NCBI GenBank assembly: GCA_016928395.1
Contig: JAFGKV010000288.1
Span: forward strand, 1-12,881
From: Candidatus Fermentibacterota bacterium
GTDB taxonomy: Bacteria; JAFGKV01
Reading direction: 5' to 3'
DNA: 12,881 nt
Positions 1 to 12,643 of this stretch are shown here, one piece after another; the stretch's first letter is position 1; each line of letters begins with the position of its first letter. The translations under genes and the position numbers were made by a program. The notes under the pieces are model-generated. The model made no database searches. It was given only the letters and a program-made list of their open reading frames with translations, and was not told where the DNA came from.

Positions 1-33
1 CCAACTGCCGGCTGTACTCTCAACCCTGAGAAT

Positions 34-58
34 TCTGAGGGAGCCCGGCGTCCTCAGA
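34..58. repeat. Inverted repeat, 7-bp arms
   Basis: TCTGAGG at 34-40 pairs perfectly with CCTCAGA at 52-58 across an 11-nt loop rich in G and C. Neither strand carries a T-run after the stem, so it is not a canonical intrinsic terminator. It sits just before the heptamer array. It could be a structural element of the repeat region or chance. Confidence 0.35.
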
Positions 59-63
59 GGCCG

Positions 64-203
64 CACTGAACCCTGAACCCCGAACCCGATGCCAGTCGGC
101 AATTGGCAGTCGGCAATCGGGACTATCTCCTCACTCCTCACTCCTATCTCCTCACTCCTATCTCCTCACTCCTATCTCCTCACTCCTCACCCCTATCTCA
201 TCC
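64..203. repeat. Compound heptanucleotide repeat, 20 units in one register
   Basis: Read in 7-base steps from 64, the sequence is an almost unbroken series of related heptamers. Three motif blocks follow each other. TGAACCC, TGAACCC, CGAACCC occupy 67-87. AGTCGGC, AATTGGC, AGTCGGC, AATCGGG occupy 94-121. CTCCTCA and CTCCTAT units occupy 127-196. The register does not slip between blocks although the motifs differ. Heptameric short tandem repeats are known from other bacterial intergenic regions, notably heterocystous cyanobacteria, but their role is not settled. Because 7 is not a multiple of 3, translated frames here are meaningless mosaics. Confidence 0.85.
127..196. repeat. Polypyrimidine core: ten CTCCTCA/CTCCTAT heptamers
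   Basis: Ten consecutive 7-bp units run CTCCTCA, CTCCTCA, then alternate CTCCTAT and CTCCTCA, ending CTCCTCA, CCCCTAT. The alternation produces a 14-bp super-repeat in three perfect tandem copies at 145-186, with another copy at 124-137. The plus strand is wholly C/T apart from one A per unit. The minus strand, which is the operon's sense strand, is therefore G/A-rich. Such tracts are prone to slippage and unusual helix structure. I infer copy-number variation between strains but cannot test it here. Confidence 0.85.
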
Positions 204-234
204 CCGGCCTTGCCCAAGAGAACATGCAAAGTCC

Positions 235-299
235 GTACTCGTGCTCGATTTCCTCTGCTCGCCGATCACGATTACGACAACGATATCGATCCCGACCCC
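235..299. repeat. Degenerate hexanucleotide repeat (GAYNNC units)
   Basis: Six hexamers in a row all begin GA and end in C: GATCAC, GATTAC, GACAAC, GATATC, GATCCC, GACCCC at 264-299. Three looser hexamers (GTACTC, GTGCTC, GATTTC) lie at 235-252, separated by 11 nt with a one-base shift of register. In one plus-strand frame the core reads as alternating Asp-x dipeptides, which can fool gene finders into calling a small acidic protein. No ribosome binding site or codon bias supports translation. This is a second repeat class beside the heptamers. Confidence 0.65.
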
Positions 300-313
300 G
301 GGGCGGGCGGAGT

Positions 314-382
314 CAGAGCTTTGCCCCTACGAGGCAACGGTTCCTCGCAGAGTTTTGTAGGGGAGGGCGTCTCTGCCCTCCC
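314..382. repeat. Nested inverted repeats, MITE- or REP-like
   Basis: CCCCTAC at 324-330 pairs with GTAGGGG at 357-363. Inside that pair, CGAGG at 330-334 pairs with CCTCG at 343-347 around an 8-nt loop. A further perfect stem, 361-382, follows immediately. The near-identical decamers CAGAGCTTTG (314-323) and CAGAGTTTTG (348-357) form direct repeats on the same strand. The combination of stacked palindromes and direct repeats in about 70 bp resembles dispersed palindromic elements of the REP or MITE sort. No open frame for a transposase is present. Whether other copies exist in the genome cannot be told from one window. Confidence 0.55.
361..382. repeat. Perfect 8-bp hairpin, 6-nt loop
   Basis: GGGAGGGC at 361-368 is exactly complementary to GCCCTCCC at 375-382 with the loop GTCTCT. 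It lies about 105 bp past the last operon gene on the minus strand. There the stem is followed by CTACAAAACT rather than a T-run, so factor-independent termination is unlikely. The stem could still stabilise the 3' end of the operon transcript if transcription reaches it. Confidence 0.6.
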
Positions 383-423
383 GCACGCCGCTGGGCACCC
401 CGCGATGCTGGTCGGGCCTGACA

Positions 424-460
424 GCCGATAGCCAACAAATGAACCCTGAAACCCGGACCC
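424..460. repeat. Second cluster of heptamer-array motifs, one inverted
   Basis: TGAACCC recurs at 440-446, followed by degenerate copies to 460, in the same orientation as the block at 67-87. Just before it, 424-435 is an inverted copy of the TTGGC-NN-TCGGC core of the 94-121 block, matching 10 of 12 bases. The two clusters bracket the hexamer repeats and palindromes between them, about 330 bp in all. Confidence 0.5.
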
Positions 461-487
461 TCGCGGCCGACGGCGAAGCGTGGGCCA

Positions 488-1714
488 TCATCCCCGTGCC
501 CCTCCCGCCGCCAGGCGCCGGATGGCATCGGCGGTGAGGTCGGCCGTGCGGTCCCAGGTGTACGTGGCGGCGATGCGGCGGCCTTCGGCGATCAGCCGGC
601 GCCGCAGGGCAGGGTCGGCTCTCAGCCCTACAATGGCTTCGGCCAGCATATCGGGCGAGTGGGGATCAACCACGAGAGCCGCATCCCCTGCCATGTCGGC
701 CATGGGGGTGTCAGTTGCCGTAATCACTGGACACCCGCAGGCCATGGCCTCAAAAGCAGGCAAGCCGAACCCCTCTACGAGCGAGGGAATGAGCAGCATC
801 GTCGCCCCTCGGTACAGACCCCCAAGCTGCGCATAGCCGACCGGCGCCGCCCGGTGAACGGCAGGAACATCGTGTGGATCCATCGCCGAGCGAAGCTCAC
901 GAAACCGTTCCCGTGACGCCCCCACCAGCACCAGATGCACATCTTTCCATTGTCGCCGCGCCCGATGCCACCCCTCCAGCACCATTGGCACGTTCTTGCC
1001 CGGCCCGGCGCTGCCCACGCACAATGCATAGGGCCAGCCCGGCGCGAATGCGGGGCCGTCCACGCCAAGCTGGGGGCTTACCCCTTCCGGCGTCGGGGTG
1101 ATGCGCGAACGAGGTACCCCCAGCACGCTCGTCAGCGCTTCTGCCGTTCGCTGGGATACGGCCAGGTGGTGCTCCGCTTTCGCCAGCCTGACATAATGGG
1201 CGCGGTACGAGGCAGGCACGCGGCCTGACGGGAAGAACAGGGCAGGATGCTGGATGAACGCCAGATCATGGCAGACCACCGCGTGATGGCGGGCCCATGA
1301 TGGCGAGGGAACCACCAGTTGCTGGGAGCTGACGAATACGTCCAGACGCAGCGGCGCGAGGGCGGCCCTCGTGGCACGCTCGACCCACAGAGCAGGAATC
1401 CGGGCCAGAAGCCCCATGGCGCCCCCGGCCGGCCGCCACCGCGGAGTCAGGCCGACGGTGCGTGCCCCGGGCCACAATGCGTGGAGGCAAACCGGGGGCT
1501 CATGCCCCTCTAGTATGCCCAGTACGCAGCATGCATCAGGAAGCCTGGCCGCAAGCCGGGGCAGCATTTCCTCCAGATATCTCCCCACCCCTCCGAGGTT
1601 GCCTGCAGAGCCGTCGGCAGGGCCGGGGATGGGCATCTCCTCGTCATCCGAGGCATACCGGGGGGCGTTCTCGTACGCCTCGTGGAGCCAGCGGACGTCG
1701 ATACCCAGGTTCAT
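488..1714 (-). CDS. GT4-type glycosyltransferase
   Basis: This 408-residue protein has the two Rossmann domains of the GT-B fold and most resembles GT4 (mannosyltransferase-like) enzymes. These retaining enzymes transfer a sugar from a nucleotide donor to a growing glycan on the cytoplasmic face. The N-terminal donor/acceptor loop is GGVGRY at 41-46. The C-terminal half holds GPGKN at 237-241 and the hallmark E-x7-E motif within EGFGLPAFEAMACGCPVI (314-331), with E314 and E322 as the donor-contacting acids. A glycine- and acid-rich insert of about 20 residues separates the first strand from GGVGRY, longer than usual. The ATG at 1714 overlaps the stop of the upstream radical SAM gene as ATGA, so it is translationally coupled. 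It is the last gene of the operon. The fold assignment is firm; donor and acceptor are unknown. Confidence 0.9.
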   Translation of the reverse strand: MNLGIDVRWLHEAYENAPRYASDDEEMPIPGPADGSAGNLGGVGRYLEEMLPRLAARLPDACCVLGILEGHEPPVCLHALWPGARTVGLTPRWRPAGGAMGLLARIPALWVERATRAALAPLRLDVFVSSQQLVVPSPSWARHHAVVCHDLAFIQHPALFFPSGRVPASYRAHYVRLAKAEHHLAVSQRTAEALTSVLGVPRSRITPTPEGVSPQLGVDGPAFAPGWPYALCVGSAGPGKNVPMVLEGWHRARRQWKDVHLVLVGASRERFRELRSAMDPHDVPAVHRAAPVGYAQLGGLYRGATMLLIPSLVEGFGLPAFEAMACGCPVITATDTPMADMAGDAALVVDPHSPDMLAEAIVGLRADPALRRRLIAEGRRIAATYTWDRTADLTADAIRRLAAGGARG

Positions 1715-3219
1715 GCCCGGCCTCGAAGAGCTCTCGCCAGGCGACGCAGCCGCGCCTCGATTCTCAGCCTCCAGAAGCGGTGTTCAGCGCGCCAGAACGC
1801 CAGATCAGCCAATCGTTTCCGCAGCCATGGCAGCGGGTACTCTCCCAGCCGGTCAGACTCCTCCACGTAGAACATGCTGAACAGGATATCCTCCATGAGG
1901 CCCGCATCCGCAATCCAGGGCAGGCGCCCAGACCGGAGAAAGCCCTGCGGCCCCAGCTCCGCTGCCCAGCCCGCCAGGTCGGCAGGCTCCTGGAGCCCCG
2001 CCTCCAGGGCTCGCGCATACAGCTCTCCGCCAGGATAGGGGCGAAACAAGCCCGGCCCGCATACCACGGATCGGGGAAAACGTCGCTTGAGCCGCGCCAT
2101 GAAGGCGAGGGTATCGAAAAGCTGCGCCCGAGTCTCTCCTGGAATGCCCATCATGAAGAACAAGAGAGGCACGATACCTGCATCGTGGCACGCAGCCACG
2201 GCATGTTCGGTCTCAGCCACCGTGATGTCTTTTTTCAGGAGTTGGAGCACCTCGTCATTGCCGCTCTCGGCGCCCATGCGCAGGCATGCGCATCCGGTCT
2301 CCCGCAGATAGGTGAGGAAGGCGCCGTCCACGAAACCCGGCCGGAACATGTCGGCACGGACATTTGCCTCCCACCGCACATGGGGGTATTGCCGGTGAAG
2401 GTGATCGAGGATACTGGTCACCCGGTCGATATCGCCGATGAATAGGTCGTCCATAAACCACACGTGATCGATCGTGCCGGGCTCAAGCAGCAGATCCAGC
2501 TCAGCGGTCACCTGGTCGACCGGTCGTTTGCGCCATCGCCTGCCCAGGAGCAGCTCATTGGGACAGAAGGCGCACCGGTAGGGACACCCCCGGGAGGTCA
2601 GGACATCCGTTCCCCGTACCATTCTGCCCCCGGGGATGCGGCGGGGCGCGTAGGATGCCGGATCGATTAGGTGGTACGCCGGCGAGGGAAGAGCTCGTAT
2701 ATCCGGCAGGGCCGGCTCACCGTTTCCCACGAGGGCTCCATCCTTCCGGCACAGCACGCCGGGGATTTCCAGCGGCTCGCCTGCATCGGCCAATATCGCA
2801 GCCAAGTTCACAGCCGATTCGTCCGCCTCCCGCGGCAGCACGAAGTCGGCGGCGGGATCCATGGCCGTACCCCGGGGAAACAGACTGGCGTGAGCCCCGC
2901 CCCAGACGATGGGAACACTGGGGGCAAGGGCTCGAACCTGCCGGGCAATGGCCAGCCCATGGGCGACCTGCACGGTCATGGCGGAGATGCCCACGAACAA
3001 AACATCCCGATTCAGACTCTCATGGATCCACGCCCGAGTCGCCTCCTTGGCGTGGCAGCGCGCATCGTGGAGGCGTACGACAAATCCACCGCGCTCCAGG
3101 GCGGCAGCCAAAAAGAGCAGGCCCATGGGCAGGCTGCGGCCCGGGTCCGAGGACAGTTCCTCGCCGGGATCGGCGGCATTGCTGCCCGGATAGACCAAAA
3201 GGATCTGCTTCCGGGTCAC
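1711..3219 (-). CDS. B12-binding-type radical SAM enzyme (second in operon)
   Basis: This 502-residue protein has an N-terminal cobalamin-binding-like Rossmann domain (about 1-150, with the typical WGGAHAS at 106-112). A radical SAM barrel follows, with the 4Fe-4S motif C212-x3-C216-x2-C219 in GCPYRCAFC. Further radical SAM signatures are GAESGNDEVL in the middle of the barrel and MGIPGE after it. This family (BchE, cobalamin-dependent methylases and relatives) methylates or rearranges unactivated carbon or phosphorus. The usual DxHxxG histidine that ligates cobalt is not visible; the equivalent region reads DARCH near residue 52. Cobalamin may be bound without a histidine ligand, or the domain may be degenerate. 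The start is GTG at 3219, overlapping the upstream stop as GTGA. The C-terminal 60 residues are Arg-rich. The substrate is probably a sugar or lipid of the glycan made by its neighbours (inference). Confidence 0.9.
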   Translation of the reverse strand: MTRKQILLVYPGSNAADPGEELSSDPGRSLPMGLLFLAAALERGGFVVRLHDARCHAKEATRAWIHESLNRDVLFVGISAMTVQVAHGLAIARQVRALAPSVPIVWGGAHASLFPRGTAMDPAADFVLPREADESAVNLAAILADAGEPLEIPGVLCRKDGALVGNGEPALPDIRALPSPAYHLIDPASYAPRRIPGGRMVRGTDVLTSRGCPYRCAFCPNELLLGRRWRKRPVDQVTAELDLLLEPGTIDHVWFMDDLFIGDIDRVTSILDHLHRQYPHVRWEANVRADMFRPGFVDGAFLTYLRETGCACLRMGAESGNDEVLQLLKKDITVAETEHAVAACHDAGIVPLLFFMMGIPGETRAQLFDTLAFMARLKRRFPRSVVCGPGLFRPYPGGELYARALEAGLQEPADLAGWAAELGPQGFLRSGRLPWIADAGLMEDILFSMFYVEESDRLGEYPLPWLRKRLADLAFWRAEHRFWRLRIEARLRRLARALRGRA

Positions 3220-4313
3220 CGCACGACTCCGGGCGCGGCATGATGGCAGCCTCGGCAGAGCTCGGGAATCCGCCCTCGGGATAGCCCATCCCGCATGGCG
3301 CGGTAGCCGGGCCCATTCCAGATGCTCTTGAACGAACTCGACCGCAAGTCACCCAGAGCCGCGGTTTCGGCATAGGGTAACGCGCAGCAGGGAGTAAGGA
3401 ACCCCTCCCACGTGACGTAGGGATAGTCCCACAGGTAGAAGCACGGGATGAAGGCCTCGGGCCATAGAGCCCGATCCAGTTTCGTGTACACGAAAGGCAA
3501 ATTCAGCTCTGCAGCCCTGCGCTCTGCCGCGAGCGTCATGCGCCGCGCACGCTCAATGCTCTCCACGGCCATGGGGTCAGTGCCCTCAGGCTTCCAGCGG
3601 GCGCTGAGGTCGCAGAAGCTGATGCGATCGACCTTCAGCTGTGCGCCCAGTTCCACGAACTCAACCAGTTCGCCCACATTGGGCTCCATGACCACCAGAG
3701 CCAAAGCCACGGAAGGCCGCGCGCTCAGCTCGCATACCGCGCCCACCTGGTGCACGATCTGGTCAAACCTGCCGCCCCGGACAACCTGATGGGTCGAGGC
3801 CGTCGCCGCATCCAGGCTGACCCCGATCTCACCCAGCCCGGCCTCGACCAGCTCCGCCACGCGCGCCGGGGTCAGGAGTACACCATTGGTGTTCAGGCCG
3901 ATCGTGGCCATCGGCGCCCGGGCCTTCACCGCTCTGGCCATGGCAGCCAGGTCGTGGTTCAAGAGCGGCTCTCCCAGACCGTGGAGCGTCACATGCTGGA
4001 AATGCCGGAAGTGAGCCAAGAGCTTCTCGAAAGTAGACAGCGACATGTGCCCCTGATGTTGGGGAGGGCCCAGCGTTGAACGGGAGCACTGGGCACAGGC
4101 CATGTTGCAGCGGCTGCTCACCTCGAACTGGAGGAATCGGGGCCAGGAGGCCACGCGGGTGGGCCGTCGCCGCACCGCCACCGCCGCGGCGATGTGATTC
4201 AGGGTGGCCGCGGCCCCCACCGAGTGTGCCAGGGCGATCATTCTCGCGAGCCTTCCCTGAGGTTTCTCCACGCGGGCGCGGGATGCGGCGGGGCGCAGAC
4301 TCTCGGCGCTCAT
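3216..4313 (-). CDS. Radical SAM/SPASM domain protein
   Basis: The 365-residue product carries C69-x3-C73-x2-C76 (CNMACAQC), the radical SAM 4Fe-4S motif, with GEP at 114-116 and GLNTNG at 139-144. The C-terminus has a short SPASM-like set of cysteines (C291, C309, C310, C353, C356), including the closing CRGC before the end. SPASM proteins hold extra Fe-S clusters and act on peptides or sugars, for example in peptide maturation or amino-sugar dehydrogenation or epimerisation. About 57 residues precede the barrel, with a hydrophobic stretch near 25-47. I chose ATG at 4313 because it forms an ATGA overlap with the upstream glycosyltransferase stop. The same frame stays open to 4460, but that extension lies inside the neighbouring gene. 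The stop overlaps the downstream GTG. Substrate unknown; a sugar modification would fit the context. Confidence 0.88.
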   Translation of the reverse strand: MSAESLRPAASRARVEKPQGRLARMIALAHSVGAAATLNHIAAAVAVRRRPTRVASWPRFLQFEVSSRCNMACAQCSRSTLGPPQHQGHMSLSTFEKLLAHFRHFQHVTLHGLGEPLLNHDLAAMARAVKARAPMATIGLNTNGVLLTPARVAELVEAGLGEIGVSLDAATASTHQVVRGGRFDQIVHQVGAVCELSARPSVALALVVMEPNVGELVEFVELGAQLKVDRISFCDLSARWKPEGTDPMAVESIERARRMTLAAERRAAELNLPFVYTKLDRALWPEAFIPCFYLWDYPYVTWEGFLTPCCALPYAETAALGDLRSSSFKSIWNGPGYRAMRDGLSRGRIPELCRGCHHAAPGVVR

Positions 4314-5254
4314 CTCACGCGAATCGAATAGGTGTGATGCGCGGAGAGCAGCATCCTGTTGAATGCCCTCTTCCGCTGCCAGTTCGCGTTGCAGAAGCCA
4401 AGAACCGAAAGCAGGGCGGCCAGAAATAGATTGAGCCGGGCGCACACCAAAGTCGTCCATCGCACCAATGCCCCTGCGCCGGGCCCGTGGCGCGCGGAGA
4501 AGTAGATATACTTACCCTCGTACGAACGGGCCAGCTGCAGCCCTTGGGGCAGAGTCCTCCATGTCGCCCCCATGTCATGCACCACCCGGACGGCGGGGAC
4601 GTAGTACCGCTGCCACCCGGCCCGCGCCATGCGATAGGCCCAGTCGATGTCTTCATAGTAGGTAAAGAAGCGCTCATCCATGCCGCCGGTGGCATCCAGG
4701 GCCGCGCGCCTGACCAGGAGGCAGGAGCCGGCCGGTGCATCCACCGGCCGGGGATCCTGTTCGCTCAGGGAGGGGGGGACGCCGCTGAAGCCGATATCCT
4801 TGAGCCTCCGGGGCAGGAGCCATCCCAGCGGCGAAAGCCCCAGGAGATGGGGCAGGAGCCGGGGGAACCGGGCATAGGAGATCTGTGGAGCACCCTCAGG
4901 AGTCACCAGCATGGGACTGGCCGCACCGACCCCGGGGTGTTCCTCCATGAACCGTACGAGCCCCTCCACCGCTCCCTGGGGGAGGATGCAATCGGGATTA
5001 AGAAGCAAGAGATAGTCTCCTCCTGCCGTGCTCATACCCGCATTGGCGCCCCTGGCGAACCCAGCATTCTCCTCGCTCCGCAGCAGAATCACGCCATCGA
5101 ACGCCGCGACAGCCTCGGCGGTGCCGTCGTCCGATGCATTGTCCACCACGATGTGCTCATACGTGCCGTCCATGGGACGAGCCTCCACCACCGAGGCAAG
5201 ACAATTGACCACATGGTCGCGGGCATTGAAGGTCACTGTCACGATGGAGACCAT
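4310..5254 (-). CDS. GT2 glycosyltransferase, rhamnosyltransferase-like
   Basis: This 314-residue protein has a GT-A fold of family 2. It starts with the nucleotide-binding strand VSIVTVTFN, followed by VDNASDDGT at 37-45, and NPDC at 86-89 takes the place of the DxD metal motif. The acceptor/catalytic segment GMDERFFTYYEDIDW is at 191-205, with the base probably in EDIDW, and H226 follows. This arrangement is typical of WbbL-like rhamnosyltransferases of cell-wall and O-antigen pathways. A hydrophobic stretch near 263-288 suggests membrane attachment at the C-terminus. I placed the start at ATG 5254 because an AGGAGA site stands 4 nt upstream and the family motif begins at once. The frame stays open to 5422, but that 56-residue Gly/Pro-rich extension lies within the preceding gene. 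The gene overlaps the upstream GT2 gene by 16 bp. Confidence 0.9.
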   Translation of the reverse strand: MVSIVTVTFNARDHVVNCLASVVEARPMDGTYEHIVVDNASDDGTAEAVAAFDGVILLRSEENAGFARGANAGMSTAGGDYLLLLNPDCILPQGAVEGLVRFMEEHPGVGAASPMLVTPEGAPQISYARFPRLLPHLLGLSPLGWLLPRRLKDIGFSGVPPSLSEQDPRPVDAPAGSCLLVRRAALDATGGMDERFFTYYEDIDWAYRMARAGWQRYYVPAVRVVHDMGATWRTLPQGLQLARSYEGKYIYFSARHGPGAGALVRWTTLVCARLNLFLAALLSVLGFCNANWQRKRAFNRMLLSAHHTYSIRVR

Positions 5255-6171
5255 CGGGTCTCCTGTATCAGCCTGCGGAGTGCGGCCCGGTAGAAAAGGT
5301 CGTGAACAAACCGGAAGTAGGGCGCCCGCAGGGCGGGCACCGCCGTGCACACCGGGGCCCATGCCTCGACCACCGCCAGCACCGGCCGGCTGTGGGCGAG
5401 AGCCCGCCGCGCCCGCGCCCATGGGGTGTCACGGCCGAGGGTGATGAGGCCGGGAATCGTGGCATCAGCGATGAGTGCGCCCTGCGCCAGGCTTTCCATG
5501 CGGGCGAGACTGCCGCGAAGGGTCACGGGGTGATGGTGATAGCCCACGGCGGCCGGCTCGTAGTGGAAACGCATGCCTCGTTGGCCCAGGCGTGCGCCCA
5601 GTTCGACATCCTCGAACGCCGCCCCGGGAAACCGTTCGCTGAATCCGCCGGCCTCACAGACAAACGAACGGGCCACCGAGATATTGGCAGTCCAGAAGAA
5701 GACCGGCGGCACGTTCATGGGATCGGTGATCTTGTCATAGCAGAACTGGGGCCCCCCGTGCTCCAGCCAGTGCATGAGCGGTGAGATGTGAAGCTCCCTG
5801 CTCCAGGTGACCCGCCCCAGCACCGCCACATCCTCTCCGGGAAACCGGTGATGATGCGCGAGGTGCGCCTCCACCAACCCCGGCGCCGCCACCACGTCGT
5901 CGCCCATGAAAAGCACAAGGCGCCCGTGGGCTGCGGCCAGGCCCCGATTGCGGGCAGTGGCGGGACCCCGGTGATCCTGGCGGATCATGCGCACCGGCAC
6001 GGGCGATTCCCGGGCCCAGAGCTCCACCGAGGCGACTGTGTCATCCACGGAGCCATCATCTACCACAACTACCTCGGCATCGCCCCGCTGGCATTGCCCC
6101 GCGATTTCTTTCAAGCCCCGCATGAGAATCGGGCGCCGGTTGAAGGTGGGGATGATGATGGAGAGAATCAT
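5239..6171 (-). CDS. GT2 glycosyltransferase
   Basis: This 310-residue GT-A fold protein begins ILSIIIPTFNR, with VDDG at 37-40, the metal-binding GDD at 90-92 in LVLFMGDDVV, and FEDVELGARL at 186-195 holding the likely catalytic base. It is a typical inverting family 2 enzyme that adds one sugar to a lipid-linked or soluble acceptor at the cytoplasmic membrane. It differs clearly from the next GT2 (DxD-type GDD rather than NPD), so the two probably add different sugars rather than being recent duplicates. The histidine-rich stretches AHHHRF and YHHHP are unusual but scattered. Its ATG at 6171 overlaps the upstream membrane-protein stop as ATGA, and its 3' end overlaps the following gene by 16 bp. 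Donor and acceptor cannot be read from the sequence. Confidence 0.9.
   Translation of the reverse strand: MILSIIIPTFNRRPILMRGLKEIAGQCQRGDAEVVVVDDGSVDDTVASVELWARESPVPVRMIRQDHRGPATARNRGLAAAHGRLVLFMGDDVVAAPGLVEAHLAHHHRFPGEDVAVLGRVTWSRELHISPLMHWLEHGGPQFCYDKITDPMNVPPVFFWTANISVARSFVCEAGGFSERFPGAAFEDVELGARLGQRGMRFHYEPAAVGYHHHPVTLRGSLARMESLAQGALIADATIPGLITLGRDTPWARARRALAHSRPVLAVVEAWAPVCTAVPALRAPYFRFVHDLFYRAALRRLIQETRWSPS
5259..5264 (-). promoter_or_regulatory. Ribosome binding site deciding the GT2 start at 5254
   Basis: AGGAGA on the minus strand lies 4 nt before the ATG at 5254, an almost ideal Shine-Dalgarno placement. It lies inside the 3' end of the preceding GT2 gene and supports the short form over the start at 5422. 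Confidence 0.75.
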
Positions 6172-8084
6172 CCGTCCTCCGGGTCGTGGAGTTCAACCAG
6201 CAGCATCCTCTCGGTTGACTCGATGATCCGCACGGGAGCGCCGCGTTGGGTTCGGTCGGCCAGCCAGCGGAGCACACCTTCCATGACGGCGTCGCGCTCC
6301 TGGCGGGCGAAGTAGGGGAACCCCCACCTGTAGGGCACGGTTTCCACCATGGCCACCACCGGGCGGGTGGAAGGCCATTGCATATCCGGGGACTCACCGA
6401 GCAGTGATGACAGGCGGCGCGTATGATGACGAGGCCAGACTATGGACTGCACAGGGTCCTGCGTGGGGAAGGGTCGGCCGTCAGGCAACCGAGAAATGAG
6501 CCCCAGCGAGTAGACCGTGCCCGGATGATCCAGGAGCAGCTCATGGGCCCAGCGGACCGCCTCGGGGTAGCCAAGACGCGCATAGTTCACCGGCTGGGGC
6601 CGCAGTGAGAACATCGCAAGCCCCACGAAGGTCGCACAGAGCCCGTCGCGGAGGCGACTCGAGAGCACCGTGGCTGCTGCGACCACGCCCAGCACTGCCA
6701 GAAGCACTCCCTGCGACGGCGTGGACTCGCCCGTCATGAGGCGGTGGGCTGCCAGCACCACCATGCCAGCCAAAGGTATGAGCCGCCGCCGGGACTCCAG
6801 CCGCACGTCACCGACAAGGCTGCCGGCCGCCCAGGCAAAGGCCATGGCATAGTAGGGGGGCGCATGACCGTAGTCGCCCAAATACAGCGCGTCGCGGGCG
6901 GCGGCGTAGGCGGTATGCAGCAGCACCAGGGCCATCAGCAAAGGCGGCATTGTGCGTCGTCGAAGGGCGGCACATCCCAGAACAACGACGATGACCACGG
7001 CCGTGATGTCCATCCATTCCACATACCATCCGGTACCCAGCAGGATTCGGTGCAGGTCGACGCCGTGGCCGCCCACGGTGAAGGATGCCCGGGGTGAGAG
7101 GTGCGCCATGGCGGAGATGCCGAAAGAATGATGCATCACATGGTAGTACGCCCACGCGAACAGCGTCATGACCGCACCGGCCAGTAGCACGGACAACGCG
7201 GGCCTTCGGGCGCCGGTCACTAGCCCTGCCACGGCTCCGCACACGATCCATGCCACCATGAACTGCACCGACAGGGGGTGAATCAACACGTGGGCCATCC
7301 CGGCACCCACGAGAACCGCCGCCGCACGCCGTGAGCCATGTTCCACGGCCTCGACCAGAAGCAAGAGCAAGGCGGGGAGGAAGGCGAAGGCAAACCGGTC
7401 GGGTTCCAGAGAGGTCTGCACCGAGGGCAGGACAAGATGGCGGTACGCAGGGACCGCATACACGAAGGCCGCAACCCAGCCGCCGAATGGCGTGGACGCA
7501 CGGCGAGCCAAGGCATAGGCGCCTACGACACCCATGAGGGAGAGCAGGGGGCCGAAGAAGCGCATCACCTCGTAGGGCGATAGCCCTGACGCCCCATGCA
7601 GGGTCAACACCAGGGCGTGGTAACCCCGAGGATAGAACGAAAAGTCATGGAATCCGGCGATGGGGTCTCCCATGGCCAATGCCTTGCAGAGCACTAGGTG
7701 GCCCCAGGGATCATTGCCGCCCAGGGCAAGGTGACGAAGGGAGTCCGGCAGGCGCAAGGCCAACGCCGCGGCCATGGCCAGGATGAGAGGCCACTGAAGC
7801 TTCGGCGCCGCGGTAGGACATCGGCGGCCCCAGGCCATCGCGGCCATCGAGACCACGATGTGCGCGATGAGGCCCCATTCGGGGGCATACGCGCCGGTGA
7901 CCATGAGGCAGTAGGAGGATGCGACATTCGCGGTCACCCCCAAGAGGAACGCGATGAGTGCCTGCGCGGCGTGTCCGCCGGGCCCAATCCTACCGCTGAC
8001 CCGCCACCACGGCAGGATCCACATCGCACCCCCCGCGGCCCCGAGACGAAGCAGCGCGAGCACTTCAACCCATCCGACCGTCAC
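6168..8084 (-). CDS. Polytopic membrane protein, GT-C-like glycosyltransferase candidate
   Basis: This 638-residue protein has roughly 14-16 hydrophobic segments spread over residues 5-493 and a soluble C-terminal tail of about 140 residues. After the fourth hydrophobic segment a loop carries GNDPWGHL (123-130), and a second acidic site EPD lies at 228-230. An acidic motif in the first large outer loop is what GT-C enzymes (PMT, ArnT, STT3/AglB, mycobacterial arabinosyltransferases) use with polyprenyl-phosphate sugars on the outer face. I therefore infer a lipid-linked sugar transferase or polymerase rather than a flippase. The overall similarity is too loose to name a family, and a Wzy-like or purely structural role is possible. 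The start is GTG at 8084 (GTGA overlap with the upstream gene); the 3' end overlaps the GT2 gene as ATGA. Confidence 0.8.
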   Translation of the reverse strand: MTVGWVEVLALLRLGAAGGAMWILPWWRVSGRIGPGGHAAQALIAFLLGVTANVASSYCLMVTGAYAPEWGLIAHIVVSMAAMAWGRRCPTAAPKLQWPLILAMAAALALRLPDSLRHLALGGNDPWGHLVLCKALAMGDPIAGFHDFSFYPRGYHALVLTLHGASGLSPYEVMRFFGPLLSLMGVVGAYALARRASTPFGGWVAAFVYAVPAYRHLVLPSVQTSLEPDRFAFAFLPALLLLLVEAVEHGSRRAAAVLVGAGMAHVLIHPLSVQFMVAWIVCGAVAGLVTGARRPALSVLLAGAVMTLFAWAYYHVMHHSFGISAMAHLSPRASFTVGGHGVDLHRILLGTGWYVEWMDITAVVIVVVLGCAALRRRTMPPLLMALVLLHTAYAAARDALYLGDYGHAPPYYAMAFAWAAGSLVGDVRLESRRRLIPLAGMVVLAAHRLMTGESTPSQGVLLAVLGVVAAATVLSSRLRDGLCATFVGLAMFSLRPQPVNYARLGYPEAVRWAHELLLDHPGTVYSLGLISRLPDGRPFPTQDPVQSIVWPRHHTRRLSSLLGESPDMQWPSTRPVVAMVETVPYRWGFPYFARQERDAVMEGVLRWLADRTQRGAPVRIIESTERMLLVELHDPEDG

Positions 8085-9280
8085 GGCAGCACCCCGCTGG
8101 AACCCAGGCCCAGCATGGCGCGGGCCACCGGGAACACCTCGGTCAGCGGTACGGCGCCTTCCGGCCCTGAGCCATCGCTGGTGATGAATGCGCCCCAGTT
8201 GTCGCTGACCGATGGGTGGTAACCGTGCATCCCTGCCGGCCTGATCCCCCTCTGGAAGTAGGAGGGCATGATCACTGTTCCCTCATCCACGACCCAGAAG
8301 GCCTCACCATTCTCGCGGCGGCCGCCTCGAAGATGCAGCTCGTCAAAATCGCCGGGGGAGAGCCAGCGCCCTCCGGGAAGCGCCTCAAGCCGTTCCGTGA
8401 TGCGCGCACGGGCCGGTTCGCGAAGAAACCAGAACCTCGCCACAGTGGAGTCCAGGAACACGACGTAGTCACGGCCGTGGCGAAGCGGGAGTTCGCCCAG
8501 AGCGGCCTCCACATTGACCTCTCCCCGCACCTCTACCATGCCATGATCACCAAACACCAGGAGCTTTGCATCCGGCCACAGAGACCGGGCATGGCGCCAC
8601 ACCGATTCGAGCCCTTCGTCGATGGCCCGCAGGGCCCGGTGGACCTCGGGGGAATGCGGCCCGTGCTCATGCCCGGCCCAGTCCAACTCTGCATAGTGCA
8701 GAAACACGAAGGAGTGCGAGGCTCTGATTCGAGACAACGCGGCCGCGGTGAGCACTGAGGTCCGCTGATCCACCACGGGATACCCAAGATGAAGCCAGGG
8801 GCGACAGTGGGCCGAGAGGATGCTGAGCAAGCCGGGCCGGGGCTGCGCCCGGTCTTCCCATGGGAGGTCCGTCTCGGAGAAGGCAAACAGAGACAACCGC
8901 CTCAGCGGGATTTCGGCCAGGTAGCAGTATGAGGCGCTGCCGCGATGGCCCCGACGCGCCTCCGCCCTGCACGCCATGGCCGTCAGAGCCCTGCGCACCC
9001 GCCACGACAGGGGCGTCCACCGGTCGAAGATGCCGGGGAGGAACCGCGCCGCCTTGAACGGCGAATTGGCCGGGTCATAGCAGAAAAGATGCCCGACCCC
9101 GCTTTCGTTCGGGAATAGGCCTGCCATGAATGCGGGCCGGAGCTGGCCCGCGAACACCTCTTGTGTCGCCCCTGCGGAGCCTGCGGCAGCCACCTCGGCC
9201 AAGAAGGGAGCATGCTCGGGCCTGACCTTGTCATGACGCAATGCATCCACCAGAACCATGAGCAGATGTTCGTTGCTCAC
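8081..9280 (-). CDS. Alkaline-phosphatase-superfamily protein (type I phosphodiesterase-like)
   Basis: This 399-residue protein matches the type I phosphodiesterase/nucleotide pyrophosphatase branch. D12 is in VLVDALRHD, D200 and H204 in LDWAGHEHG, D245 and H246 in GDHGM, and H352 in HGYHP. These are the six expected ligands of the two-metal centre. The nucleophile segment before GLFPNESG reads VFAGQLRPAFMAG (42-54). Counting back from the conserved glycine, the position normally held by Thr or Ser is A44 (codon GCG at 9149-9151). The enzyme may therefore be inactive as a classic hydrolase or use another nucleophile (T39 is near). There is no signal peptide, so it should be cytoplasmic. The family handles phosphodiester or phosphoglycan bonds. 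The start is GTG at 9280, touching the TAA of the upstream gene; an in-frame ATG at residue 8 would leave only three residues before D12 and cut the first strand. Confidence 0.87.
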   Translation of the reverse strand: MSNEHLLMVLVDALRHDKVRPEHAPFLAEVAAAGSAGATQEVFAGQLRPAFMAGLFPNESGVGHLFCYDPANSPFKAARFLPGIFDRWTPLSWRVRRALTAMACRAEARRGHRGSASYCYLAEIPLRRLSLFAFSETDLPWEDRAQPRPGLLSILSAHCRPWLHLGYPVVDQRTSVLTAAALSRIRASHSFVFLHYAELDWAGHEHGPHSPEVHRALRAIDEGLESVWRHARSLWPDAKLLVFGDHGMVEVRGEVNVEAALGELPLRHGRDYVVFLDSTVARFWFLREPARARITERLEALPGGRWLSPGDFDELHLRGGRRENGEAFWVVDEGTVIMPSYFQRGIRPAGMHGYHPSVSDNWGAFITSDGSGPEGAVPLTEVFPVARAMLGLGSSGVLP

Positions 9281-10381
9281 TTAGACTGGTTCCCCGTAGC
9301 AGACCTCAAACCACCGTTGCACCGAAAGCCTGGCGGCCTCGGACCAGCAGGTGAACCGAGGCGCCGGCCCTGAGTGTGCCAGGAACCGGTGCGCCAACCG
9401 TAGTGCATCCGCCTGGTCTGAGCCCTCGAGGCCCGATGCGCCCAACACGAGCACTTCGGCGCATTCGACGGCTCTGCGCCGGGCATCAAAGCGCCCCGTC
9501 TTGAGCAGAGACCGCAGGGTGGGGCGCACCGGCAGAAACCGGCGTCGCCACAGAGCCTGGGCCACGTGGGAGGCAGAGGCAGATGGGCTGCCGACAAAGC
9601 TCCCGACTTCAGCAATCAGCCGCCCGCAGGCGAGGCGCCACAGATCCGTGCTCCAGCGTCGCGGCCCGGGCTCCACTCGGAAGGAGAGCGCTTCCTCCGC
9701 GGCTTCTGCAAGCGGGTCGTCTGGCGCCAGGGCCTTGAACCGGGCCACCTTCTCACGGTAGGGTACGACGTAGGTTCCCGCCTTGACCAACGCGGCATCC
9801 ACCACCGCCAACACGGCCTTGCTCACCTGGGAGGGAAAGCGCGTAGGATCGGGCATTTCGCCCGTGAGTTCCTGTGGCGGGCATTCCAGGAGACAGACCA
9901 TCCTGTTCAAGAGCAGAATCAAGGCCTCGGTGCGGGCTACCGGGACCGCGGGAATATCGTGGAGCGGGCCGGCAGTTCCCCGCAGAAGCCCGTGGCCTCG
10001 TCGGGCATCGATCACCAGCATCGTGTCCGCGGCGCGAACCAGATCGCCAGGAGTGAACGGCACGATATCCAGACCGGGAAGACCCAGGTCCTTCTTCAGC
10101 TCGGCGCAGAGCGGCCCGATCCGCTCCCATCCGCTCCTCGTGGGGGTGACAAGGAGCAGATCATAGTCGTTCCACGGTGCGAATCCCGCCTCGGTGCGTG
10201 CCATGGCGCCCTCGCCCCTGCCGAAGGCGCCGATCACGGCCAAGGTCAGGAGTTCCCCAAACGCCGCCGCTACCCCGTCTGCGATTCGCCGAAGGTCGTT
10301 TCGGGCTCTGGCCTCGGCCTCGGGAAGACCGGATGCCGTGAGTCGGCCCACGGCAGGCGAATCATCGGAGATAGTCGGCAA
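9281..10381 (-). CDS. Polymerase-beta-like nucleotidyltransferase
   Basis: This 366-residue protein has a minimal nucleotidyltransferase core. VIGAFGRGEG at 49-58 supplies the G-x-G-R-x-E motif, NDYDLLLV at 71-78 gives the D72-x-D74 metal pair, and LDIVPF at 104-109 gives the third acid, D105. The spacing between the glycine motif and the DxD is longer than in small antitoxin-type members. The rest (about 120-366) is a helical domain without a family name I recognise. Such enzymes transfer an NMP to a protein, sugar or small molecule. The context suggests activation or decoration of a glycan precursor (inference). The start is uncertain. TTG at 10381 has an AGGGA a few bases upstream and overlaps the previous gene by 20 bp. 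GTG at 10351 would remove ten residues without harming the domain but lacks a clear ribosome site. The TAA stop abuts the next gene's GTG in the same frame. Confidence 0.82.
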   Translation of the reverse strand: MPTISDDSPAVGRLTASGLPEAEARARNDLRRIADGVAAAFGELLTLAVIGAFGRGEGAMARTEAGFAPWNDYDLLLVTPTRSGWERIGPLCAELKKDLGLPGLDIVPFTPGDLVRAADTMLVIDARRGHGLLRGTAGPLHDIPAVPVARTEALILLLNRMVCLLECPPQELTGEMPDPTRFPSQVSKAVLAVVDAALVKAGTYVVPYREKVARFKALAPDDPLAEAAEEALSFRVEPGPRRWSTDLWRLACGRLIAEVGSFVGSPSASASHVAQALWRRRFLPVRPTLRSLLKTGRFDARRRAVECAEVLVLGASGLEGSDQADALRLAHRFLAHSGPAPRFTCWSEAARLSVQRWFEVCYGEPV

Positions 10382-11702
10382 AGATCCCTATCTGTCGGGC
10401 CAGCATACCCAGCGAGCCCCTGGTGAACCGGCGAACGGCATACGCCGGCCGCAGGTAGTACCTCAGCAATGCGCGGCGCTGCACCGCCTTCAGATCTGCC
10501 CCGGGAAACCGGTAGCCGAAGGGAAAGAAGTCACCAGTGACGGCGTCGCCGAGTTCCTCTGCCATGGGAGTGCCGGGGTATGGCTCCAAGACATGGAACG
10601 AGGCGTAGGTCGGCGCCAGTTCTTTGGCGAACTCCACCGTCGCCTCCATGTCGGTGGGCGTTTCGCCCGGGAACCCGAACATGAAGAAGCAGGCGGTCTC
10701 CATGCCGGCGTCTTGGGCCATGCTGACTCCCCTGCGGATGGTCTCCGTAGTCTCGCCCTTGCGAATGCTGACCAGCACGCGGTCGCTGCCCGACTCGACG
10801 CCGAAGTGCACCAGGCGGCACCCGGTGTGCCGCATCCGCTTCAGAAGCGCCTCATCCAGGCTGTCGGCTCTGGTCTGGCAGCACCACGAGACATCGCGGC
10901 CCAGGCGTTCCATGCAATCGCATACGGCCAAGGCACTGGCACGGTCGATGGTGAACTCGATATCGATGAAGTAGAGGCTGCGGACCCCGTGGGTAAGCAC
11001 GGCTTCCCGAATCTCACGACAGACATTGTCCGCGGGTTTGCGGCGGAACGCGCGCCCGCCGTACATGGCCCGTAGGCAGAAGCGGCACCCATGGGGACAG
11101 CCCCGGGTCGCCTCGAGCAACATGAGATGGTCGCCCAGCACTTCGTAGCGATACCGTTGCATGGGCAGCAGTTCCATGGCAGGCGCGGGCAAGGCGCCCA
11201 GGTCGAGCAGTGGCCGGGGGCTGGTGGTGATGAGGGCGCCGTTCTCAAGGTATGCCACACCCGGCGTCGCCTCCCGGCTGCCGCGCGCCAGATCCCGCAT
11301 GGTCGCTTCAGGCTCGCCGATAACCGCCGCATAGGCGCCGGTGGCCCGCAGCATCTGTGCCGGGCGAACCGTGCCGTGCACTCCCACGACGACTACCCTG
11401 GGAACGACCTGCTTTACCGCCTCGACTGCGGCCAGGAACGGATCCAGCTCGGTATTGGGACAGACCCACTTGTCCAGCGTAGAACTGGTGACAAACGCCA
11501 ACTCAGCGCCGCGAACCCGCTCCGCCAGGCCTTCGGCCTCGATTCTTTCGGCATTGGCATCCACTACGGACACGGCAATGCCGGCATCACGGATCATCGC
11601 AGCGGCGGTCGCCAGCGACAGCGGCGGCCACACGCGGTTGTACACCGGGCCCCGGAGCCTTCTGCCTCTGGTCCACAGAGGATTGACGAGCACGACGCTC
11701 AC
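10362..11702 (-). CDS. B12-binding-type radical SAM enzyme (first in operon)
   Basis: This 446-residue protein has the cobalamin-binding-like domain at about 1-150 (PLSLATAAAMIRDAG, then VVDANAER). The radical SAM barrel has C202-x3-C206-x2-C209 in GCPHGCRFC, then GVESGSDRVL and FGFPGE. The layout is that of BchE-like and cobalamin-dependent methylase enzymes, which methylate or rearrange unactivated carbons. As in the operon's other B12-type enzyme, the DxHxxG cobalt-ligand histidine is missing (DAN at 48-50). The two share the same motif order and look like distant paralogues, with this one about 55 residues shorter. It begins at GTG 11702 behind an AGGGAG ribosome site 6 nt upstream. It opens the operon, separated from the nitroreductase by a 267-bp gap where a promoter would be expected. 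The substrate is not deducible. Confidence 0.9.
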   Translation of the reverse strand: MSVVLVNPLWTRGRRLRGPVYNRVWPPLSLATAAAMIRDAGIAVSVVDANAERIEAEGLAERVRGAELAFVTSSTLDKWVCPNTELDPFLAAVEAVKQVVPRVVVVGVHGTVRPAQMLRATGAYAAVIGEPEATMRDLARGSREATPGVAYLENGALITTSPRPLLDLGALPAPAMELLPMQRYRYEVLGDHLMLLEATRGCPHGCRFCLRAMYGGRAFRRKPADNVCREIREAVLTHGVRSLYFIDIEFTIDRASALAVCDCMERLGRDVSWCCQTRADSLDEALLKRMRHTGCRLVHFGVESGSDRVLVSIRKGETTETIRRGVSMAQDAGMETACFFMFGFPGETPTDMEATVEFAKELAPTYASFHVLEPYPGTPMAEELGDAVTGDFFPFGYRFPGADLKAVQRRALLRYYLRPAYAVRRFTRGSLGMLARQIGIFADYLR

Positions 11703-11708
11703 GTCAGA

Positions 11709-11714
11709 CTCCCT
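11709..11714 (-). promoter_or_regulatory. Ribosome binding site of the first operon gene
   Basis: AGGGAG on the minus strand lies 6 nt before the GTG at 11702. It supports that GTG as the real start and marks the head of the nine-gene unit. Confidence 0.65.
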
Positions 11715-11890
11715 GTGACGGTGGCTCTTTCTGATGGATACAGCACCACGTACCTCTGTGTGAAGTGTGGATCGGGAGGACAGCGGGGCTCACCGCGGAC
11801 GCCGCACGATACCCGACGGGTGATTCGAGGTTTATCAGCGCAGAAAGAAGGGGGAGCGGGCGCTGAATCGCAAGGCGTGGCAGTATTTTC

Positions 11891-11913
11891 CGCGAGGCCA
11901 TCCGCACCTCGCG
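11891..11913. repeat. Perfect 7-bp inverted repeat, 9-nt loop
   Basis: CGCGAGG at 11891-11897 pairs with CCTCGCG at 11907-11913. It lies 57 bp past the nitroreductase stop on the minus strand. There it is followed by GAAAATACTG, so it lacks the T-run of an intrinsic terminator. It could be a Rho-dependent 3' end stem, an operator-like site for the operon, or chance in GC-rich DNA. Confidence 0.35.
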
Positions 11914-11969
11914 ACCATATCCCCCGTTTCGGCACCGACGCCGACACCGGCGCGAAAGAGATTCGGGCG

Positions 11970-12587
11970 CTATTCCACGATCCTGACGACCTGTTCCAGC
12001 GGAGCCTTCCGGGGACCCGCCACCGGGTAGGCGGCATAACCGACCGGGACCACGGCCATGAACTCTCCCTGGGGCTCGCCCAGGAAGGAAAGCACATCAT
12101 CCTTGATGAGGAATAGGATGCCCAGCCACACTGTGGCAACGCCAAGGGATGTCGCCGCCACCAGCATGTTCTCCACCGCCGCCGCGGAGTTCTGGATCTC
12201 CATGGTGCGGAAGAAGTCGCGGGCGGAGTCTTCGCCGACCCCGAACAGCTCTGCTCCCCGGGCGATGAGTTCACCGGTATTCGAAACGGCGATTACGACG
12301 GGAGCGCTGACTATGCTTCGCGCCGCCATGCGCAGCAGGGTCGAGGCGGGGCGGGGGAACCCCGCGGCATGCGAAGTTACCAGATGGGCGAGAGCCTTTT
12401 TCTTCTCGCCGCGCACGACGACAAAGCGCCATGACTGCTGGTTGTGCGCCGAAGGCGCTTGGTTGGCGGCACGCAGGATCGCGGTGATGTGGTCATCAGG
12501 AACGAGCCTGCCGGTGAACATGCGGACACTGTGGCGGTTGGCGATGGAATCCAGCGTCTCATTGCGGACAGGACGTGACGCGGTCAT
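11970..12587 (-). CDS. Nitroreductase-family flavoprotein
   Basis: This 205-residue protein has the size of a single-domain FMN nitroreductase. NRHSVRMF at 17-24 provides the arginines that hold the FMN phosphate. PSAHNQQSWRF at 45-55 is the classic second FMN motif. The segment around 137-155 (AVENMLVAATSLGVATVWL) is the conserved helix and strand near the flavin. These dimeric cytoplasmic enzymes reduce nitro compounds, quinones or enones with NAD(P)H, and some oxidise or fragment special substrates. I chose ATG at 12587 because GGAGGT stands 4 nt upstream; the frame stays open to 12629 but the extra 14 residues lack support. It ends 267 bp before the operon on the same strand, so it may be a separate unit. 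The physiological substrate is unknown. Confidence 0.9.
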   Translation of the reverse strand: MTASRPVRNETLDSIANRHSVRMFTGRLVPDDHITAILRAANQAPSAHNQQSWRFVVVRGEKKKALAHLVTSHAAGFPRPASTLLRMAARSIVSAPVVIAVSNTGELIARGAELFGVGEDSARDFFRTMEIQNSAAAVENMLVAATSLGVATVWLGILFLIKDDVLSFLGEPQGEFMAVVPVGYAAYPVAGPRKAPLEQVVRIVE

Positions 12588-12591
12588 GGCT

Positions 12592-12597
12592 ACCTCC
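12592..12597 (-). promoter_or_regulatory. Strong ribosome binding site of the nitroreductase
   Basis: GGAGGT on the minus strand lies 4 nt before ATG 12587. It decides between this start and the upstream ATG at 12629. Confidence 0.8.
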
Positions 12598-12643
12598 GGC
12601 AGGACGAGGCGCACGGGGAATGGGGGCACGGAAACAGAGAGGA

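Follow-up and report, generated by a model that had tools for sequence, protein, structure and literature searches.

A nine-gene unit of Candidatus Fermentibacterota with three radical SAM enzymes and a paired nucleotidyltransferase and NPP-fold phosphodiesterase

Introduction

Radical chemistry on sugars is known mainly from antibiotics and lipids. The described enzymes closest to those treated here are AprD4, a radical SAM diol dehydratase that acts on paromamine (PMC5461906), and HpnJ, which is part of the BHT cyclitol ether pathway (PMC5462960). Nucleotidyltransferases with a polymerase-beta core are represented by AadA, AAD(9), ANT(4') and MNT/HalB, the nucleotide pyrophosphatases (NPPs) by Xac NPP (2gsn) and ENPP6 (5egh), and the ABC-transporter-dependent O-antigen loci by the exporter Wzm/Wzt. 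To our knowledge, neither radical SAM enzymes nor a nucleotidyltransferase-phosphodiesterase pair are among the parts of the described Wzm/Wzt O-antigen loci.

Here we present the analysis of a stretch of 12,881 nucleotides from Candidatus Fermentibacterota (the window), which is the entire contig C16 of a draft genome of 4.79 Mb in 343 contigs. It carries a unit of nine genes that resembles each of these systems in part. The two B12-type radical SAM enzymes of the unit (rSAM1 and rSAM2) have the domain layout of AprD4 and HpnJ, enzymes that work on sugar-bearing substrates and are their best matches, but the family scores of rSAM1 and rSAM2 lie far below the cut-offs. The nucleotidyltransferase (NTase) has the polymerase-beta core, the DxD motif and the third carboxylate in common with AadA, AAD(9), ANT(4') and MNT/HalB, whereas its length of 366 aa, which includes a long C-terminal helical region, its lack of a family in Pfam and NCBIfam and its position in glycan loci, paired or fused with a phosphodiesterase (PDE), set it apart. 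The PDE in turn has the fold and all six metal-binding residues of the NPPs; unlike them it has Ala44 in place of the threonine, no phosphate-binding asparagine and an additional DSTxxR motif, and it looks cytoplasmic and is always accompanied by its own NTase. A colinear relative of the unit in another phylum lies directly behind Wzm and a Wzt with a Wzt_C domain, whereas the window unit has no transporter.

Results

Positions 488-11702 of the window hold nine intact open reading frames, all on the minus strand, transcribed in the order rSAM1, NTase, PDE, GT-C-like protein, GT2a, GT2b, SPASM, rSAM2 and GT4 (Table 1). The initial annotation had described them as a gapless series, and all of its junctions hold when GT2b is started at 5254, not at the longest-ORF start 5422, and SPASM at 4313. 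They consist of a 20 bp overlap between rSAM1 and NTase (10362-10381), a direct TAA-GTG abutment of NTase and PDE (9281/9280), GTGA overlaps at PDE/GT-C (8081-8084) and SPASM/rSAM2 (3216-3219), ATGA overlaps at GT-C/GT2a (6168-6171), GT2b/SPASM (4310-4313) and rSAM2/GT4 (1711-1714), and a 16 bp overlap between GT2a and GT2b (5239-5254). The Pfam domains bear out the two B12-type and one SPASM radical SAM enzymes, the two GT2 and the one GT4 glycosyltransferases of the same annotation, and for the PDE they give a type I phosphodiesterase/nucleotide pyrophosphatase. In the gap 5' of the unit a consensus scan detected no promoter, and the predicted fold of the upstream RNA was nothing unusual. 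The Rfam search gave no match. A nitroreductase-family gene (11970-12629) lies on the same strand 267 bp 5' of the unit, and 86 bases close to the right end of the contig (12714-12799), another short dispersed repeat, have a 99% match to contig C45.

Table 1. Features of the nine-gene unit and its surroundings in the window.
Feature	Coordinates	Strand	Description
rSAM1	10362..11702	-	first gene; B12-binding and radical SAM domains; PF02310, PF04055
NTase	9281..10381	-	predicted polymerase-beta-fold nucleotidyltransferase (motifs and predicted fold); TTG start
PDE	8081..9280	-	NPP-fold phosphodiesterase; PF01663
GT-C-like	6168..8084	-	polytopic membrane protein; family unassigned by Pfam/NCBIfam
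GT2a	5239..6171	-	glycosyltransferase; PF00535
GT2b	4310..5254	-	glycosyltransferase; PF00535
SPASM	3216..4313	-	SPASM radical SAM enzyme; PF04055 62.5 bits, PF13186 50.5 bits
rSAM2	1711..3219	-	B12-binding and radical SAM domains; PF02310, PF04055
GT4	488..1714	-	PF00534, PF13692; last unit gene on contig C16
Gap 5' of unit	11703..11969	-	presumed promoter region
Dispersed repeat	1..487	not assigned	at contig end, where the unit is cut

The phylum sample comprised three genomes: that of the window, G001 of the same genus (locus L010; recorded as Candidatus Eisenbacteria) and G002 of the same family (locus L011; recorded as Candidatus Fermentibacteria). Both relatives have all nine genes in an order identical to that of the window, with protein identities to the window of 60-82% in G001 and 47-66% in G002 (66-82% for rSAM1 in L010/L011), and several of the L010 junctions retain the 4-base overlaps. 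The order is therefore beyond chance, and the reading of the nine genes as one co-inherited unit is supported. The co-occurrence of the nine families that the initial annotation had looked to is thus found in these two genomes, but within our sample of 386 genomes the complete set is confined to this small phylum. The flanks of the unit differ among the three genomes: the upstream nitroreductase of the window has no match in L010 or L011, and a second, lipoprotein-like type I phosphodiesterase is encoded just 5' of rSAM1 in L010 (1485-2876) but was not seen there in the two remaining genomes.

In both relatives GT4 is followed by a tenth gene with weak similarity to PMT_2. Its relative in the window genome is situated at the start of contig C49, 274 bases in (L084:274-1842), and the encoded protein has 55% identity to that of G002. 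The left end of the window is a dispersed repeat, of which the genome contains over 40 further partial copies, many located at contig ends; it is probably the reason for the assembly break, and the unit is therefore cut there. The presence of the tenth gene in both relatives, its position on C49 and the repeat together indicate that the operon probably has at least ten genes and was split by assembly. Directly after the tenth gene, L084:1875-6440 encodes a protein of 1521 aa that contains propeptide and peptidase C25 domains, the latter of gingipain type.

In NCBIfam, GT2a came closest to EpsD (NF041875; 182 bits, below the cut-off of 370). For the GT-C-like protein there was no match in Pfam or NCBIfam and no PDB relative by sequence, and it occurs in three of the 386 genomes, all three phylum members. 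According to Pfam, no flippase, ABC exporter, polymerase or sugar-nucleotide gene is among the nine, which agrees with the initial annotation as regards flippase and sugar-nucleotide genes; seven Wzx-like flippases are encoded elsewhere in the window genome and could provide the export route for the unit. Since export and polymerase genes are absent and the contig ends within the locus, we only liken the unit to surface-glycan loci and do not call it a full member.

All three radical SAM enzymes have the CX3CX2C motif (rSAM1 C202-C209, rSAM2 C212-C219, SPASM C69-C76), and rSAM1 and rSAM2 score above the cut-off for both of their Pfam domains, as putative B12-type (class B) enzymes. The closest solved relative is AprD4 (6fd2) for rSAM1 (E 2.9e-29) and for rSAM2 (E 5.5e-22) and BtrN (4m7t) for the SPASM enzyme; cytosylglucuronate decarboxylase was also among the solved relatives, and the closest ones of all three enzymes act on sugars or cyclitols. 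In NCBIfam, HpnJ was the best match for both B12-type enzymes. With a score of 163.9 against a cut-off of 577.6 bits for HpnJ (TIGR03471), and of 121.5 and 84.3 against 500 bits for AprD4 (NF033070), the enzymes are so far under every family cut-off that neither the HpnJ nor the AprD4 reaction is assignable. About 70 radical SAM domains are encoded in the window genome. A RiPP reading ranked low: beside the radical SAM genes there is no precursor peptide gene, as the overlapping and abutting genes leave no space for one, and in the NCBIfam comparison of the nine proteins all scores of RiPP radical SAM models were under the cut-off.

The NTase has the motif GxFGRGEG...DYD...D, and its residues G51, F53, E57, G58, D72 and D74 are invariant across the NTase family; D105 is likely the third carboxylate, judged from the sequence. 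Its AlphaFold model (pLDDT 88.1) is nearest to the solved folds of AadA and AAD(9) (Z 13), HalB (Z 11.6) and MNT (Z about 11). Because the sequence motifs and the predicted fold agree, we retain the polymerase-beta-like assignment made initially, and the window protein is a putative polymerase-beta-fold nucleotidyltransferase with a predicted activity.

For the PDE, first described as a phosphatase-fold protein, the assignment had to be changed. The predicted structure (pLDDT 91.8) has the fold of a nucleotide pyrophosphatase, with a Z of 31.9 over 326 residues to ENPP6 and of 31.0 to Xac NPP, which makes it a phosphodiesterase of NPP fold, but one from which the threonine nucleophile of the NPPs is absent. 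The six metal ligands (D12, D200, H204, D245, H246 and H352) and the DSTxxR motif (277-282) are invariant in all family members where covered. In the profile alignment Ala44 is aligned with the nucleophile T90 of Xac NPP, gapless up to a conserved glycine, and among the 31 members covered this column holds alanine in 9, glycine in 11, serine in 11 and threonine in none. Alanine and glycine belong to the branch of the window and serine to another, separate and supported branch (99/96). A first alignment had placed threonine at this position in the PDE of locus L013; this was overturned by the profile alignment, which gives glycine. By counting at the position that corresponds through the Xac NPP alignment, the phosphate-binding asparagine, N227 in NPP3 (PMC6052110), is present in 0 of the 31 members. 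Crystals of NPP3 T206A soaked with a substrate analogue still showed the product AMP (PMC6052110), and therefore loss of the threonine is no proof of loss of activity. The PDE translation has no obvious secretion signal.

The PDE profile matched 16 of the 386 genomes at E < 1e-40, the next best genome being at 4e-18, and at E < 1e-5 the NTase profile matched an identical set of 16, with neither partner alone in any other genome. The 13 pair-carrying genomes outside the phylum belong to eight families, which gives nine bacterial families in all. The chance of two identical sets of this size would be about 1e-28 if the genomes were independent, which they are not. The NTase profile was built from sequences near PDE genes; such a profile alone could not make entire genomes agree, and G243 has the two genes on different contigs. 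By our home-made profiles, 23 of the 27 loci that lie outside the phylum have NTase and PDE adjacent or fused, within about 3 kb, and a Wzx-type flippase identified by Pfam adjoins the PDE in six loci (L067, L069, L070, L073, L076 and L020). Plasmid and phage collections contained no real PDE relative. The functional pairing of NTase and PDE is well supported. Most of the pair loci beyond the closest relatives of the window have no radical SAM genes nearby, so that radical chemistry and pair do not necessarily contribute to a common product in all carriers. A core that recurs in unrelated genomes, as the initial annotation had envisaged, is found in the broadly recurring NTase-PDE pair, but usually without the radical SAM genes.

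The colinear relative in another phylum (G044) has six genes with seven domains in window order. Its locus reads methyltransferase, epimerase, Wzm, Wzt, B12-type radical SAM enzyme, NTase, PDE-GT2 fusion, GT2, B12-type radical SAM enzyme and GT4, so that the colinear block adjoins an O-antigen-type exporter; compared to the window, the GT-C and SPASM genes are absent. The GT2 fused to PDE in this locus (L012) is a relative of GT2a. Larger fusions were found in two loci recorded as Deltaproteobacteria, namely a B12-rSAM-NTase-PDE-GT2-TPR protein of 1704 aa that is open at the contig end (L017) and an NTase-PDE-GT2-TPR protein with SPASM radical SAM and methyltransferase domains, 3274 aa long and open at its start (L018). 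The open frame of the latter (L018:3-9827) contains many TPR repeats. PDE and NTase form a single protein in Acidobacteria and one Betaproteobacterium; where the contig extends beyond it, genes for a GT2 and a GT2-GT4 protein come next. The window genome has a second glycan locus of its own (L013, on contig C201) with NTase, PDE, GT4, a Wzy-like protein, methyltransferases, two GT2, two B12-type radical SAM enzymes and an epimerase. Just 5' of these genes lies one for a SAM hydroxide adenosyltransferase (13851-14654). The association with radical SAM genes holds for L013 and the closest relatives but does not extend through the whole family of the pair. In a tree of the B12-type radical SAM enzymes L012_rSAMa, the first such enzyme of the colinear locus, was not placed with rSAM1, and shared gene order is therefore not proof of orthology for every gene; rSAM2, L012_rSAMb and both L013 enzymes form a group with a support of only 86/88.

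Discussion

It seems rather probable that the unit assembles a surface glycan, the sugars of which are remodelled by radical SAM enzymes, and that a nucleotidyl phosphodiester is formed by the NTase-PDE pair and afterwards passed on or removed by it. This reading fits the anatomy of the unit as well as the fusions, the co-occurrence of the pair and what adjoins it in sister loci. An envelope glycan with radical-installed modifications and perhaps a nucleotidyl or phosphodiester decoration had already been proposed in the initial annotation. Its assembly is supported by the Wzx, Wzm/Wzt or Wzy-like protein beside the core in sister loci and the radical modifications by the closest solved relatives acting on sugars, while the decoration, likewise supported, is now the strongest part of the interpretation.

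The glycan role of the unit is well supported; as to the exact chemistry of the pair, its direction, the substrates, the order of steps, the lipid carrier and the export, we infer the following. GT2a, GT2b and GT4 would build an oligosaccharide in the cytoplasm, and rSAM1, rSAM2 and the SPASM enzyme may remodel its sugar residues by deoxygenation, epimerisation, oxidation or C-methylation. The NTase would attach to a glycan intermediate either an NMP or a phosphate derived from one. The phosphodiester so made would be the substrate of the PDE, which would hand its phosphoryl part straight to an acceptor or else take off the nucleotide, bypassing the covalent intermediate on a threonine that is usual. 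The last steps of transfer or polymerisation across the membrane would fall to the GT-C-like protein and the product of the tenth, PMT_2-like gene, with export through genes elsewhere in the genome. Against the surface-glycan reading it can be said that a protein of NPP fold that has lost its nucleophile could be without catalytic activity, that the nine genes include no flippase, polymerase or sugar-nucleotide gene and that the orthology of rSAM1 is unsupported by the tree. A further step, which we put forward only tentatively and regard as doubtful, is that the pair represents an undescribed and widespread chemistry, in which the nucleotidyl-glycan phosphodiester made by the NTase is directly transferred to an acceptor by the nucleophile-less NPP-fold enzyme, while in this lineage that glycan is also remodelled by the radical SAM enzymes.

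The NPP-fold protein might instead have no enzymatic role and, with its metals bound, serve the NTase as a phospho-ligand-binding partner or regulator, as would fit both its obligate pairing and fusion with the NTase and the lack of the threonine nucleophile and the phosphate-binding asparagine in 31 of the 31 members covered. However, six invariant metal ligands are unusual for a dead enzyme, serine occupies the nucleophile position in one subclade and AMP was still seen in the NPP3 T206A crystals (PMC6052110), and we consider such a role unlikely. Somewhat less likely still is a pathway for a small, aminoglycoside-like pseudo-oligosaccharide. In such a pathway the sugars would be tailored by the radical SAM enzymes, and the product would be kept masked within the cell by an ANT-like NTase until the NPP-like enzyme removed the mask. 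AprD4 and BtrN, the closest solved relatives, both come from aminoglycoside pathways and the NTase has the AadA/ANT fold, but Pfam shows neither a cyclitol synthase nor an aminotransferase in the unit, the best AprD4-family score is only about a quarter of its cut-off (121.5 vs 500), the PDE has no obvious secretion signal and the sister loci contain Wzx, Wzm/Wzt or Wzy-like genes. That an ordinary O-antigen, capsule or exopolysaccharide locus merely picked up radical SAM, NTase and PDE genes as unrelated tailoring functions is very improbable, for although glycan loci readily mix genes and radical SAM domains abound in this genome, the order is identical in three genomes and the pair co-occurs in 16 of 16, with multi-domain fusions.

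Each protein of the unit is a member of a known superfamily, and glycan operons are already known. In the literature searched, largely from outside subscription journals, we found no description of the pair, of the gene combination or of nucleotidylated glycans of this sort, and the same holds for the NPP clade that lacks the nucleophile, the fusions and the joint occurrence of the obligate pair with three radical SAM enzymes; the set thus does not appear there as an already described locus, in line with the initial annotation, which could not match it to a named pathway.

The analysis provides a concrete enzyme pair in surface-glycan loci that was complete in 16 of the 386 genomes and never represented by one partner alone, and for which the literature searched describes no function. 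In case the pair makes and moves a glycan phosphodiester, this would mean an extra step in glycan assembly and an active site of the alkaline phosphatase superfamily that works without its nucleophile. In this phylum, the three radical SAM enzymes together with the pair would bring radical sugar chemistry into a cell-surface glycan.
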